Position numbers and translations under genes: made by a program. From assembly GCF_036237275.1 (NCBI RefSeq), contig NZ_CP108352.1:558001-622000 (forward strand): a DNA stretch of 64,000 bases, in the 5' to 3' direction. This document shows, piece after piece, positions 1-4,296 of the stretch (its first letter is position 1; every line of letters begins with the position of its first letter). The notes under the pieces are model-generated. The model made no database searches. It was not told the origin of the DNA and saw only the letters and a program-made list of their open reading frames with translations. Source of the DNA: Streptomyces sp. NBC_01353 (GTDB lineage: Bacteria > Actinomycetota > Actinomycetes > Streptomycetales > Streptomycetaceae).

Positions 1-1
1 T

Positions 2-106
2 CTGACCGGGCTGATCGGCCGGGTGCGCCGGGAGTCGCCGGCGAGTCGTGTCGTCGTCCCCGACTACAGGACCGTCTACGGCGGTGACATGAGGCCACGC
101 CCCTGA
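2..106 (+). CDS. 3' end of an unidentified gene (partial)
   Basis: The first 34 codons of the window are open and end at a TGA at 104-106. The C-terminal peptide contains VVVPDYRTVYGGDMRPRP, which I cannot assign to a family. It has typical high-GC third positions, and a strong hairpin follows it 41 bases downstream, so a real gene end is likely. The rest of the gene lies outside the window. No function is claimed. Confidence 0.45.
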   Translation: MTGLIGRVRRESPASRVVVPDYRTVYGGDMRPRP

Positions 107-147
107 CGAGTCAGGCACGACCGCCCAGTCCTCGACGGAGCGGGAAC

Positions 148-182
148 GCCGTCGCCCCCGGCGGGTGGCCGGGAGCGACGGC
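148..182. terminator. bidirectional terminator-like hairpin
   Basis: GCCGTCGC at 148-155 pairs with GCGACGGC at 175-182. After one mismatch, CCCGG at 157-161 pairs with CCGGG at 169-173. This stem sits between two convergent genes, the partial gene ending at 106 and the P450 gene ending at 213. No clear U-tract follows, which is common in high-GC actinomycetes. Confidence 0.65.
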
Positions 183-212
183 GGTCGGCGTGCGGAGCGG
201 GTCAGGCGACGG

Positions 213-1397
213 TCACCAGGCGACCGGAAGGCGCTCGGGGATGCGCTTCATGAAGCGGGTGCGCCAGACGAGTTGGTCGACCGGAACCGCGAGGTGCAGG
301 TCGGGCATCCTGTCGAGGAGTACCTCCAGGGCGATCTCGGTGTGCCGCTTGCCGAGGGCCGTGGCCGGGCAGTAGTGACCGCCACCCCCGAACGACAGGT
401 GCGCCGCGGCGTTGGGTCGGGTGATGTCGACGGTGTGCGGGTCGGGGAAGACGGCCGGGTCGGTGTTGGCCGCCTCGACCAGGACGAGGAGCAGCTCGCC
501 CTTGCGGACCTCGACGTCGCCGAGGGTGACGTCCTCGAGGGCGAGGCGCGGCAGCCCGTCGGCGATGGAGAGGTTGACGCGCAGCAACTCGTCCACGGCG
601 GCGGGGATCCGCTCCGGTTCCTTGCGCAGCCGCTCCCAGACGTCGGGGTTCTGGAGCAGCGAGAAGATGGCCATGGTGAGGAAACCCATGGTGGAGATGA
701 CGCCCGCGCCGAAGAAGGTGACGCCCACCGTGGCGAGCATCTCGTCGGTCAGATGGGCGTAGTCGGGATTCCCGCGCAGGGCGGCGAGTTCGGCCATCAG
801 TCCCGTGGTCGCCGGGTCGTCCAGGCGCTCGACCATATAGGCGATGTCGCGGTCCCAGTTGAGCCGGGCGCCGGTGACGGGGCAGGCCGAGTTCATGAAC
901 GCGATGTCCAGGCTGGCGGCGAGGCGCGGCGCGTCGGCCTCGGGTATGCCGAGGATGCGGCAGTGGAGGTTCTCCGCGTACGGGTTGGTGAACCGGCCGC
1001 GGAGGTCGACGGGCGGGCCGTACGCGACGAGTTCGTCGACGAGCTCGGAGGCGTGGCGGCGCATCCACTCGGTGAGGCCGTCGGTCTTGGGGTTGATCGC
1101 CTTGAGGACGGCCTTGCGGAGCCCCGCCCCGGTGATGTTGCCCATGTTGTTGACCACCTCGGGCGGGATGGTCAGCGCGTACTGCCGGGGGACGCCGGGA
1201 GCCGAGGTGTCCTTGAGCGAGAAGCGGGGGTCTTCGAGAACCTGCTTGCACAGCTCGTAGGAGGACACCAGCCAGGCCGGGTCGCCGGCGATGGTGCGGA
1301 CTCGTTTGACCGGCTCGGCGCGCAGGGACTCGATCTCGGTCGGAAGACGGTCGCCGCGGGCGGAGAACGGGAAGTCGGTGAGCGTGTCAGTGGTCAT
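213..1397 (-). CDS. CYP121-like cytochrome P450 paired with a cyclodipeptide synthase
   Basis: A 394-residue cytosolic P450 that probably oxidises the diketopiperazine made by the upstream synthase. The heme-ligand segment is [10 protein letters not shown] with Cys343, and the I-helix carries [10 protein letters not shown]. From memory it matches Mycobacterium tuberculosis CYP121 (mycocyclosin synthase, 396 aa) almost throughout: [11 protein letters not shown], the NWDRDI segment and the C-terminal [10 protein letters not shown] and RIPERLP segments are shared. The CYP121 residue pair Gln385-Arg386 is here Met383-Lys384, so the substrate or the coupling outcome may differ. The ATG at 1397 has GGAG about 6 bases upstream and overlaps the synthase end by 11 bases, indicating translational coupling. 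The larger open frame to 1799 is a shadow of the synthase gene. Redox partners are not in the window. Confidence 0.93.
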
Positions 1398-2166
1398 CGT
1401 GGTCTCCGAGGATCGCGCTGACGATGGCGTGGCCCTGGTTGCGGGAGGCGCGCAGTCCGGAGCCCCTGGAGTAGAGGAGTTCGGCCATCGGCAGGAGCTG
1501 GTGGTAGCAGTTGAGGGAGGAGGGGACACCGAGGATCGCGGGGGTGTCCAGGAAGAGCGGTGCCTCGGCGCAGATGTACTGGAGGCAGACCTCGCGCTGG
1601 CGGGCGGTGGGGGTCTGGCCTTCGAGGACCTTGGAGGAGAGGAACGCCGCGACGAGTTTGTCGCAGGTGGCGAGAAACTCCGGGTCGGTGGCGAGCAGGT
1701 CGTCCAGGTGCTTGCGCAGGTGCCGGTAGGCGGGTATGTCGAGGAGCGCGGACATGGGGCGCCCTCGGAGCCGTTCGCCGCCGGGGTCGGTGGCGGCAAC
1801 GGCGTTGTTGACCTTGGCGCGCACGCCGCGGAGGTTCTTGACCGTCTTGCGGCGGGCCTCGTCCGGCGGGTAGCCGAGGGCCTCGTACATGTCTGCGACG
1901 TGCAGGTCGGTGTAGATGAGGTCGACCTGCTCGAAGTTGCGCAGTCCCCAGGTGGCGAGGTCGGCCACGCGCTGGGCGGAGAAGTAGCCGTTTCCGGGGG
2001 AGATGCCGATGACCGCGTGGGCGCCTTCGGTGTGGATCACTTGGCAGTGCTGCGTATACGGCTGGACCTTGAAGCTGTCGGTCGCTGTCGTCGACAAGTG
2101 AAGAGATGTCCTTCGGGCCGCTAGTCCCGTCGGGGCCGTGTGCCCCTGGTGTGGCGGCGACGGCAT
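1387..2166 (-). CDS. cyclodipeptide synthase (NYH/AlbC-type)
   Basis: Makes a cyclo-dipeptide from two aminoacyl-tRNAs. The diagnostic motifs are present: [10 protein letters not shown], where Ser56 is the candidate acyl-carrying nucleophile and Asn59 the subfamily Asn; YICAEAP with Tyr197 and Glu201; and NCYH with Tyr221-His222. Asn, Tyr and His at these places mark the NYH subfamily of AlbC (Ser37, Asn40, Tyr178, Glu182, Tyr202, His203). The ATG at 2166 gives 259 residues. A TTG at 2097 with AAGGA upstream would give 236, closer to AlbC (239), so the start is uncertain. It forms a two-gene operon with the P450. The two amino acids used cannot be read from the sequence; Tyr-Tyr is plausible by analogy with Rv2275/CYP121. 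Confidence 0.93.
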
Positions 2167-2244
2167 GAAGTTACCGGCGATCTCCACAGAGTGACGATTC
2201 TGATTGCGAGGTGGCTGGTAATCGTCTGTACACGACCGAAATTG

Positions 2245-2274
2245 ATATGCCGCCCCTGATTTGGAGCGGCATAT
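2245..2274 (-). terminator. hairpin downstream of the LacI-family gene
   Basis: ATATGCCGC at 2245-2253 is perfectly complementary to GCGGCATAT at 2266-2274, with two further inner pairs. It follows the LacI gene (ends 2303) and precedes the synthase gene on the same strand, so it probably separates the galactan genes from the diketopiperazine operon. The sequence beyond it on the minus strand is moderately T-rich. Confidence 0.6.
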
Positions 2275-2302
2275 TCCGGCCATTGTCTCGGGTGTTGGAC
2301 GC

Positions 2303-3328
2303 TCAGCTCGACTCGCGGCGCACCAGCTCCGTGGGGAGGATGACCGCGGACGGTTCCTCGCCACCTATGCGGGCGAGCAGCATCCGGACCATTTCGGTGC
2401 TGATGCGGTCCCACGGCTGACGGATCGTGGTGAGCGGCGGGCGGGAGGACACAGCGGCCTGGGAGTCGTCGAAGCCGCCCACAGCGACGTCCTCGGGGAC
2501 CCGGCGGCCGGCGCGGTCGAGGGCGTCGAGCACGCCCTGGGCCATCAGGTCCGAGGCCACGAACACGGCGTCGATGTCCGGGGCGCGCTCGAGGAGCTGG
2601 GCGGCGGAGCTCTCGCCGCTCGCCCGGCTGTAGTCGCCGGTGGCGATCAGCGCGTCGTCGGCGGGCAGGCCGTACTCGGCCAGCGTTTCGCGGTATCCCG
2701 CGAGGCGTTCGACGCCGCCCGGGGTGTCCAGGGGGCCGGTGACCGTGGCGATGCGGCGTCGCCCCGTCTCGTACAGATGGCGGACCATGTCCCGTGCGCC
2801 GTCCCGGTCGTCCGCAGCGACATAGCCGATCTTGGCGGTCTGGCCGAGCGGCTTGCCGCACGCGACGACCGGGACGCCCGCTGCGTGCAGATGGGCGACG
2901 ACGGGGTCGCCGGAGTGGCTGGAGACCAGCAGGACGCCGTCGACGTGGCCGGCCTCGATGTAGCGCAGGTTGCGCCGCCGTTCGTCCTCGTTGCCCGCGA
3001 TCATCAGCAGCAGCGGGATGTCCTGGGCGGCGAGCGCCTGCGTACAGGCCCGCAGCAGCACGTTGAAGTTCGGGTCCTCGAAGAACCGCTCCTGAGGCTC
3101 GGTCAGCAGGAACGCCACCGAGCCGGACTTGCCGGTGATCAGCGAGCGCGCGTGCCGGTTCACGACGTAGCCCGTTCTGCGGATGGCGGCGTCGACGGCG
3201 GCCTTGGAGGTGGGGCTGACGTAGTGCCCGCCGTTGAGGACGCGCGAGACCGTGCCGCGTGAGACGCCTGCCTCCCGCGCCACGTCGTGGATCGTGGCCG
3301 GGCGGCGCCTGCCCGCTGGAATGCTCAT
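2303..3328 (-). CDS. LacI-family transcriptional regulator of the galactan cassette
   Basis: A 341-residue repressor. The N-terminal helix-turn-helix and hinge read ATIHDVAREAGVSRGTVSRV followed by LNGGHYVSP (about residues 11-40), and a periplasmic-binding-protein-like effector domain starts near residue 65. The ATG at 3328 has GGGGAA 8 bases upstream; the frame runs further upstream but that part is antisense to the permease. It is the last gene of a minus-strand run after an importer (26-base gap). The likely target is the palindrome at 6636-6649 in the importer/GH42 divergent region, and the inducer is probably a galacto-oligosaccharide, by context only. Confidence 0.9.
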   Translation of the reverse strand: MSIPAGRRRPATIHDVAREAGVSRGTVSRVLNGGHYVSPTSKAAVDAAIRRTGYVVNRHARSLITGKSGSVAFLLTEPQERFFEDPNFNVLLRACTQALAAQDIPLLLMIAGNEDERRRNLRYIEAGHVDGVLLVSSHSGDPVVAHLHAAGVPVVACGKPLGQTAKIGYVAADDRDGARDMVRHLYETGRRRIATVTGPLDTPGGVERLAGYRETLAEYGLPADDALIATGDYSRASGESSAAQLLERAPDIDAVFVASDLMAQGVLDALDRAGRRVPEDVAVGGFDDSQAAVSSRPPLTTIRQPWDRISTEMVRMLLARIGGEEPSAVILPTELVRRESS

Positions 3329-3354
3329 GCTCGTTTCCCCTTGTTCCCCGGTGC

Positions 3355-4296
3355 TCAGGACTTTACGGCGCCGGACAGCAGATCGAGGCTCCAGAACCGC
3401 TGGATGACCAGGAACAGTGCGATGAGCGGGACGATCGCGAGCAGCGCGCCGGTGATGACCAGCGTGTAGAGGGCGGGTTGTCCGGCCCCCTGCTTCAGCA
3501 GGGTGAACAGACCGACGGTCATGGGGAACTTCTCGTCGTCGCCGAGCATGATGAACGGCAGCAGGAAGTTGTTCCAGATGGCGACGAACTGGAAGAGGAA
3601 GATGGTCACCAGGCCCGGGGACATCATGGGCAGGGCGATCCGCAGGAAGATGCGCCACTCCCCCGCGCCGTCCATCCGGCCGGCCTCCACGAGCTCCATG
3701 GGGATCGCGGCCTCGGCGTAGATCCGGCCGAGGTAGACGCCGTACGGCGAGAGGATCAGCGGCAGCAGGACGGAGAGGTACGTGTCCGTCAGATCGGCCT
3801 CGGCCATGAGCAGGTACTGCGGGATGGCGAGGATGACCGGGGGCATGAGCACGCCGGTGAGGATCAGGTTGAAGAACGTCTCGCGGCCGCGGAAGCGGTA
3901 GACGGCGAGGGCGTAGCCGGCGAGCGCCGACACGATCGTGGAGAGCACGGCGCCGAGGCCCGCGTAGAACACGGAGTTGGCCATCCACCGCCAGTAGAGA
4001 CCGTCGCGGTACGCGGCGAGGTCGGCGAGGTTGTCGCCGAAGCCGTTCCCGGGCAGGAAGGTGAAGGTGGAGAAGAGGTCGGCGCCCGACTTGGTGGAGG
4101 CCACCAGGACCCAGGCGATGGGCAGCAGGCAGTAGAGCGCGCCGAGGAGCAGTGCGGCGGTCGGCAGGAGGGCGACACGGCCGGGGCTGGGGGTCCCCCC
4201 GCCGGAGGCAGGGGGAGGCCCCTGGGACGTTCCGGGGGTGCTGCCGGCCGCCGGGGCGGCCTTGCGCACGTGCGGCGGGGAGGCGAGCCCGCTCAT
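3355..4296 (-). CDS. sugar ABC transporter permease, MalG-like (galactan importer)
   Basis: A 313-residue CUT1 inner-membrane permease with about six helices and an EAA loop near EAGRMDGAGEWRIFLRIALP. It pairs with the MalF-like permease just upstream, and its ATG overlaps that gene's stop by four bases (ATGA). The N-terminal tail of about 40 residues before the first helix is low-complexity (PPPASGGGTPSPG). That stretch is encoded by a repeat element also found at 57052-57084, so the tail looks like an in-frame repeat insertion. No ATPase gene is nearby; a shared MsiK-type ATPase is expected. Confidence 0.92.
   Translation of the reverse strand: MSGLASPPHVRKAAPAAGSTPGTSQGPPPASGGGTPSPGRVALLPTAALLLGALYCLLPIAWVLVASTKSGADLFSTFTFLPGNGFGDNLADLAAYRDGLYWRWMANSVFYAGLGAVLSTIVSALAGYALAVYRFRGRETFFNLILTGVLMPPVILAIPQYLLMAEADLTDTYLSVLLPLILSPYGVYLGRIYAEAAIPMELVEAGRMDGAGEWRIFLRIALPMMSPGLVTIFLFQFVAIWNNFLLPFIMLGDDEKFPMTVGLFTLLKQGAGQPALYTLVITGALLAIVPLIALFLVIQRFWSLDLLSGAVKS
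4187..4225. repeat. interspersed repeat copy inside a coding sequence
   Basis: The plus strand reads CTGGGGGTCCCCCC at 4187-4200, followed by a CGGAG-type core and GGGGGAGG. The same arrangement recurs at 57052-57084 in non-coding DNA, and its first 16 bases recur inverted at 57155-57170. Here it lies in frame within the permease gene and encodes residues of about 24-37. Confidence 0.7.

Follow-up and report, generated by a model that had tools for sequence, protein, structure and literature searches.

The pair of overlapping genes studied here, a cyclodipeptide synthase (CDPS) gene followed by a cytochrome P450 gene, raises two questions: what the pair would make, and how its expression might be controlled. 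The genes lie near one end of a window of 64,000 nucleotides from Streptomyces sp. NBC_01353, which is the whole stretch of DNA that was analysed; positions are counted from its first nucleotide. A previous reading made without database searches (hereafter the sequence-only reading) had proposed a two-gene diketopiperazine operon of an NYH synthase and a CYP121-like P450. The explanation that we find best as a whole, with a probability of about 0.8, is that of a gym operon that would be under a structured leader RNA. The enzyme pair alone is already described, and the leader RNA is the new point. The features are as follows.

213..1397, minus strand: GymB-type cytochrome P450 gene (394 aa), with putative C-C coupling of cyclo(Tyr-Tyr) and nucleobase transfer
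1387..2097, minus strand: NYH cyclodipeptide synthase gene, predicted to make cyclo(Tyr-Tyr) (236 aa, TTG start; PF16715, NF052540, pocket motifs, start set by comparison)
2098..2162, minus strand: structured RNA of 65 nt, a conserved element of the 5' leader (from 78 distinct aligned elements and counts of their pairs)
2109..2113, minus strand: Shine-Dalgarno-like AAGGA (from the sequence; recurs across the leader alignment)
2168..2197, minus strand: promoter-like sequence, TCGTCA (2192-2197), 18 nt, TAACTT (2168-2173)
2245..2274, no strand assigned: nine-base inverted repeat ATATGCCGC / GCGGCATAT, seen by eye in the interval that separates the lacI-type gene from the gym promoter

The enzyme pair and its predicted products

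The synthase matches the Pfam CDPS family PF16715 (293.8 bits) and the NCBIfam family 'cyclodityrosine synthase' NF052540 (411.7 bits, for a cut-off of 300); it is the single CDPS found in the whole genome (E <= 0.001). Over the aligned parts, its identity is 63.6% to Rv2275 and 34.9% to AlbC. The AlbC-type catalytic residues listed in the sequence-only reading are in place: Ser56, Asn59, Tyr197, Glu201, Tyr221 and His222 align with S37, N40, Y178, E182, Y202 and H203 of AlbC, and this set is kept in 84 of 89 gym-side loci, the remaining five having gaps or shifted residues. At the AlbC positions given in PMC5816076, the pocket motifs are VGITMLFN (P1) and LAFSQLP (P2), a pair that appears in Table 2 of that paper for a characterised cyclo(Tyr-Tyr) (cYY) producer; the cYY group is there given 145 members as of June 2017. 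The motif pair thus predicts a cyclo(Tyr-Tyr) producer, as had been proposed. At five related loci (L025, L030, L038, L061, L082), the synthase frame seems disrupted, shifted or incomplete while the P450 is whole, which could reflect sequencing error or decay. In one Streptomyces genome (G085), three synthases exceed the cyclodityrosine cut-off and there are two more CDPS genes.

The second gene encodes a protein in which the Pfam p450 domain was confirmed. It had been likened to CYP121 of Mycobacterium tuberculosis along its whole length. The alignment does run full length and the two enzymes share a clade, but the closest solved enzyme is GymB1: identity is 89.3% to GymB1 (PDB 8q6z), 67.5% to 8q6x and 60.4% to CYP121. 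The ranking of solved structures is the same, with 806.7 bits for GymB1, 578.6 for 8q6x, 532.5 for CYP121, 506.9 for 9o4d and 490.2 for PtmB, the first structure outside this group scoring 179.6. The P450 of Streptomyces flavidovirens DSM 40150 (L007) shows 100% identity to GymB1 (8q6z). PtmB couples cyclo(Trp-Trp) with guanine or hypoxanthine, and its homologue is called GutD (PMC13122648). The contrast that had been drawn with GutD-type P450s does not hold, given the 490.2 bits of PtmB against the 179.6 of the first outsider.

In a P450 tree of 122 rows, built by a quick method with a midpoint root and with distant outgroups on long branches, a clade of 93 rows with support 100 holds the window P450, GymB1, 8q6x, three Nocardia rows, CYP121 and the mycobacterial-type locus L115, among others. 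PtmB is outside this clade, and rows like 9o4d and like L101 are intermediate. The sequence-only reading had named a P450 outside the CYP121 clade as one ground for its own refutation, and the window P450 falls within that clade. CYP121 (PDB 1n40) and L115 are nested beside Nocardia inside the gym clade and are the sole carriers of Q385/R386 and M62/F280, the surrounding rows having M/K and L/I. From this topology and these residues, the mycobacterial CYP121 type looks like a derived member of the gym clade. Only one of 201 searched genomes of the family of L115 has a CYP121-type P450.

The residues of the pocket bear on whether the window P450 could be a plain CYP121 equivalent with mycocyclosin as its sole product. 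At 35 positions in or near the CYP121 pocket, it matches GymB1 at 34 and differs from CYP121 at eight. The exception is position 230 (CYP121 numbering), where it has F, as CYP121 does, and GymB1 has M. The set M62, F280, Q385 and R386 of CYP121 is absent from the window P450, which has L, I, M and K there. At positions 62, 73, 74, 78, 280, 385 and 386 its residues are those of 88 of 88 gym-group rows, and those of CYP121 are confined to two mycobacterial-type rows; M/K at 385/386 extends to the three Nocardia rows and Q/R is found in only the two mycobacterial-type ones. A mycocyclosin-only enzyme would fit the shared clade, the F at 230 and the report that gym enzymes do yield mycocyclosin (PMC10092475). 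The identity of 89.3% to GymB1 against 60.4% to CYP121 and the gym-group residues at all seven positions make it improbable, and we rejected it on pocket residues and clade.

A two-gene cluster called gym was found by mining Streptomyces genomes and is described as widely distributed in a review (PMC10092475), which also states that mycocyclosin and guatyromycines A and B were obtained when six gym clusters were expressed in S. albus. The primary report on gym and GymB (Liu et al. 2022, Angew. Chem., doi 10.1002/anie.202200377) is cited here through PMC10092475 and PMC11843346. A synthase above the cyclodityrosine cut-off is present in 32 of the 199 Streptomyces genomes that we searched; 196 stretches of the genome collection encode relatives of the window P450, and 80 of them were kept. 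The pair is therefore ordinary, and the idea that a mycocyclosin-type locus would be unusual in Streptomyces must be abandoned.

Compared with the published gym clusters, the window has the same two genes, a cYY-type CDPS and a P450 with the identity to GymB1 given above; it differs in its F at 230 and in being known from sequence alone. The Rv2275/CYP121 pair of M. tuberculosis belongs to the same enzyme families, aligns over the whole length and has the cYY motif, but is more distant in both proteins and at the eight pocket positions. The gut/ptm clusters share the CDPS-P450 order and a CYP121-like P450 with K386 (20 of 20 rows), whereas their P450 is outside the 93-row clade and 16 of 18 have a Trp-type P1 motif, LGVALFFS/A. 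The window operon is thus almost certainly of the gym type, as judged by these comparisons. Its synthase would join two Tyr from Tyr-tRNA into cyclo(Tyr-Tyr), and its P450 would both form mycocyclosin and couple cyclo(Tyr-Tyr) to guanine or hypoxanthine, giving guatyromycines. Mycocyclosin and nucleobase adducts as products are what the identity to GymB1 and the shared pocket lead us to infer. The minimal oxidised cyclodipeptide first predicted for this locus leaves out nucleobase coupling.

The layout is as first described. The two genes, both on the minus strand, overlap by 11 bases (1387-1397), a spacing that, as computed, is the same in 30 of 89 related loci. No further tailoring gene adjoins them. 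Beyond the P450 gene is a convergent gene for a metallo-beta-lactamase fold that ends at position 106; upstream, in the same direction, are a LacI-type regulator, two ABC permeases and a solute-binding protein, followed by a divergent GH42 beta-galactosidase. In all 80 relatives that were fetched, a CDPS match lies directly upstream of the P450; in the test of neighbour recurrence, the CDPS was found in 78 of 80 loci and the P450 in 80 of 80. The LacI, ABC, GH42, lactamase-fold and LysR neighbours, considered as operon genes, were rejected, for they recur just in the closest relatives L003 and L005 (one or two of 80 loci; an earlier count gave up to 3 of 81 but missed the LacI gene). The synthase-P450 pair therefore behaves as a stand-alone unit. 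About 20 other loci have common, different surroundings that include an aspartokinase-like gene (named by eye). The inverted repeat at 2245-2274 is possibly an operon boundary, operator or terminator; no U-run terminator was found at the repeat.

The structured element upstream of the synthase

Upstream of the synthase body, the alignment of related loci contains a strongly conserved block. From 107 CDPS loci, 88 fit the leader pattern and 86 were retained, L124 (a poor match in an odd place) and L030 (extracted sequence incomplete) being dropped; these gave 77 distinct elements, or 78 with the window. The claim of pairing is based on this alignment (A1); a further alignment (A2) and the wider search model R2 described below were fitted to the structure of the model R1, so pair counts made with them are biased towards that structure.

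The window element has a helix P1 (2154-2158 with 2117-2121), two C-G pairs (2148-2149 with 2127-2128) and a helix P2 (2142-2146 with 2132-2136). A structure of 13 pairs was specified and scored across the 78 elements: its pairs form in 97.1% of cells, and shuffling of the partners gives 92.2%. Changes on both sides are seen at seven of the 13 pairs (shuffled mean 3.2). The cell counts are inflated by related rows. None of 500 shuffles equals the observed value on any pairing measure, and controls in which the partner strand was slid out of register pair in 33-49%. RNAalifold, unprompted, returned 12 of the same 13 pairs. Compared with the dinucleotide-shuffle mean, the first 50 nt fold better in all 78 elements (mean z -2.55, with 60 below -2). 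In the window element, the outermost pair (columns 4/48) is not formed. The window element taken alone, at 65 nt, gives a moderate z of -1.76, with 12 of 200 shuffles as good. Ten of the 14 invariant columns are in helices; among the unpaired columns of the internal loop and the P2 loop, 11 reach a conservation of 90% or more, including four without any variation. Two loop columns change together, being A-C in 74 and G-A in 4 of the 78 elements; mutual-information pairs that involve a mostly-gap column were treated as artefacts.

The leader would thus fold as P1, an internal loop (CACACC opposite GGGACU) and P2, and in the window the ribosome site would lie 3 nt behind P1. Palindromic operators co-vary too and the block comes after a promoter-like sequence, so a DNA operator with nested inverted repeats and no RNA structure has to be weighed. 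On this strand, G-U cells number 21 against 10 A-C cells, an excess that, though modest, favours an RNA over the symmetry of DNA. The distance from P2 to the GGG ranges from 2 to 4 nt, and the loops are asymmetric and conserved, which also argues against an operator. We thus hold the operator to be quite improbable and 2098-2162 to be, very probably, a real structured cis-acting RNA.

The position of the element revises the start of the synthase, which the sequence-only reading had placed at the ATG at 2166. That the stretch 2098-2166 encodes the N-terminus is hardly tenable and was rejected: the frame of the window is open across 2098-2162, but the 78 leaders place the element in three phases relative to the synthase frame (38/24/16) and 21 of them have an in-frame stop after the start of the element and before the synthase body. 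In the upstream-region alignment, the stretch earlier translated as the N-terminus is strongly conserved but contains indels whose lengths are not divisible by three. Of the 78 leaders, 67 have their first nearby start codon at 63-66 nt from the start of the element, and in 62 of the 78 that codon is TTG; by the same comparison, the window has AAGGA at 2109-2113 and TTG at 2095-2097. The ATG at 2166 follows the promoter-like TAACTT and is still upstream of the point where transcription is expected to start. Translation of the synthase thus most likely starts at the TTG at 2097.

Many relatives have a TTGACA-like sequence, 18 nt and TAACTT in register. A loose promoter pattern, written after the leaders had been seen, fits 50 of 78, and 45 of these are at identical spacing before the element; a strict sigma-70 scan gave no promoter in window positions 1-3500. 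Since the promoter-like sequence is directly upstream, the 5' end of the RNA would coincide with the 5' strand of the first helix: transcription would start at about 2161-2162 and P1 would form the end of the messenger. An intrinsic terminator was rejected, the scan of positions 1-3500 having found none.

Distribution of the leader

We searched for the element with two covariance models, R1, built from CDPS leaders only, and R2, a wider model fitted to the structure of R1 (from which L106, at 25 bits, was excluded). The genome of the window has one strong R1 match (76.7 bits, E 1.3e-13), the next scoring 20.8 bits. Of 80 CDPS-P450 loci that were fetched, 76 have the element by R1, the exceptions being three Nocardia loci and L082, as do 39 of 150 Streptomyces genomes. 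All 30 synthase matches that exceed the cyclodityrosine cut-off are preceded by it, as are 9 of the 10 that score 200-300 bits and none of the 30 that score below 200 bits. This comparison assumes that the 150 genomes are G000-G149 and covers 70 of 94 synthase matches, omitting 22 in genomes beyond G149 and two second fragments. Among 297 Streptomycetaceae genomes, the element is found in 80 of the 85 with the P450 and in 8 of the 212 without it, and at 82 of 88 P450 places it is present no more than 3 kb upstream. With R2, 12 of 345 class-wide genomes have it, and outside Streptomycetaceae it occurs in L048 (Actinomadura) and G652.

The element is common to Tyr-type and Trp-type CDPS-P450 operons, scoring at least 55 bits in 15 of the 19 gut-side loci. 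It is absent from the mycobacterial-type locus L115, unlike the window, and from the Nocardia relatives; the pathway as such therefore does not need it.

At some loci the setting differs. Five have the element before a P450 whose CDPS was not found or is a short remnant (L099, L100, L162, L163, L164), so that it heads a lone P450 gene; the P450 of L164 is broken and that of L099 is closest to PDB 9o4d. Six have it before operon fragments (L167, L170, L185, L188, L190, L196), and two (L187, L189) before a CDPS whose fetched surroundings contain no CYP121-type P450. By eye, the catalytic Ser/Asn region of the L187 CDPS seems altered, and both of these loci have an enoyl-CoA-hydratase-like gene nearby. 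At six further loci (L166, L168, L169, L186, L193, L197), the element precedes a protein of about 115 residues, with a start codon 62-64 nt from the element start. A LuxR/GerE domain was found in the two of these proteins that were scanned, and the other four look alike; the proteins have conserved cysteines near both ends. Three of these elements (L166, L168, L169) were found with R1 before entering any model (E 1.2e-6, 9.5e-5 and 1.1e-4), and that of L197 is weak (E 0.039). The neighbourhoods of the three LuxR-type loci examined were uninformative. Matches at L171-L173, L194 and L195 are weak and chance-like, and those at L165, L191 and L192 are ambiguous.

Small cis-regulatory RNAs in Rfam 15 resemble the leader in being short conserved 5' elements with compensated helices before a ribosome site, but none matches it. 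At gathering scores there were no matches for the window and 17 further loci; permissive scans gave E 5.2 and 8.5 at best for the window and nothing up to E 5 for two other elements. On these Rfam scans, identity with a known RNA family was rejected. The leader was also not among the matches listed in literature searches of partial coverage on CDPS with riboswitches or RNA motifs and on Streptomyces LuxR riboswitch candidates. As far as these searches reach, it is catalogued neither in Rfam 15 nor in the literature covered.

Possible functions of the leader

The leader probably controls the pathway. Binding of a ligand or protein to the conserved loops would set translation from the TTG start, and the P450 would follow by translational coupling through the 11-base overlap. 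That the control is exerted by a bound small molecule is possible, at odds well short of even, and a riboswitch in the proper sense is a tentative candidate, at about one chance in three. The leader would then represent, as tentatively, a new class of riboswitch: an aptamer of about 50 nt with two helices, at the 5' end of the messenger, in Streptomycetaceae and a few other actinomycetes, that would respond to one small signal common to cYY and cW operons and LuxR-type genes. Because Tyr-type and Trp-type operons share the element, a purine (the guanine or hypoxanthine co-substrate) or a purine alarmone fits better than an amino acid or cyclodipeptide signal. A purine or general signal is the better guess, and the CDPS and LuxR-type contexts together point to no particular ligand.

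Folding in silico was done on 72 leaders, the six of the 78 without a ribosome-site match being omitted. Melting P1 has no consistent effect on the exposure of the ribosome site (unpaired 0.31 against 0.35), the site being more free with P1 formed in 10 of 72 leaders and less so in 19. A switch of the ribosome site controlled by P1 was rejected on these grounds, and the switching step is therefore our conjecture. The pyrimidine-rich spacer tends to pair with the ribosome site, which is unpaired at 0.44 against 0.65 with random spacers and lower in 58 of 72 leaders; the composition of these controls was chosen by the analyst, so masking by the spacer is a hint only.

A fixed 5' stem-loop that protects the end of the messenger, or prevents an inhibitory fold, and binds no ligand would account for several of these results: the leader seems to start at P1, the folding search gave no switch, and the stems change yet stay paired. 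The 11 unpaired columns with at least 90% conservation and the two loop columns that change together go beyond the needs of a plain stem, and we hold this reading to be possible, though less likely than not. It is unlikely that the leader is bound by a protein, for example by the synthase itself, which binds tRNA acceptor arms and could control its own synthesis, or by another RNA-binding protein. The association with one CDPS lineage, including the two CDPS genes with no CYP121-type P450 in the fetched stretch, and the CACACC of the loop would suit such control, but the element also precedes LuxR-type genes in six genomes and P450s with no or remnant CDPS, and is common to Tyr-type and Trp-type synthases.

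The leader RNA is well supported as a structure, and its function as a riboswitch is a candidate. If our reading of a gym operon under a structured leader is true, the leader is a cis-regulatory RNA that goes almost one-to-one with a single lineage of tRNA-dependent cyclodipeptide pathways. With 65 nt and one start codon, it would offer a simple experimental entry to the signal that switches on these two-gene clusters, and its search model recovers not only these clusters but also what is left of decayed ones, together with a second group, of regulator genes, that is unexplained.
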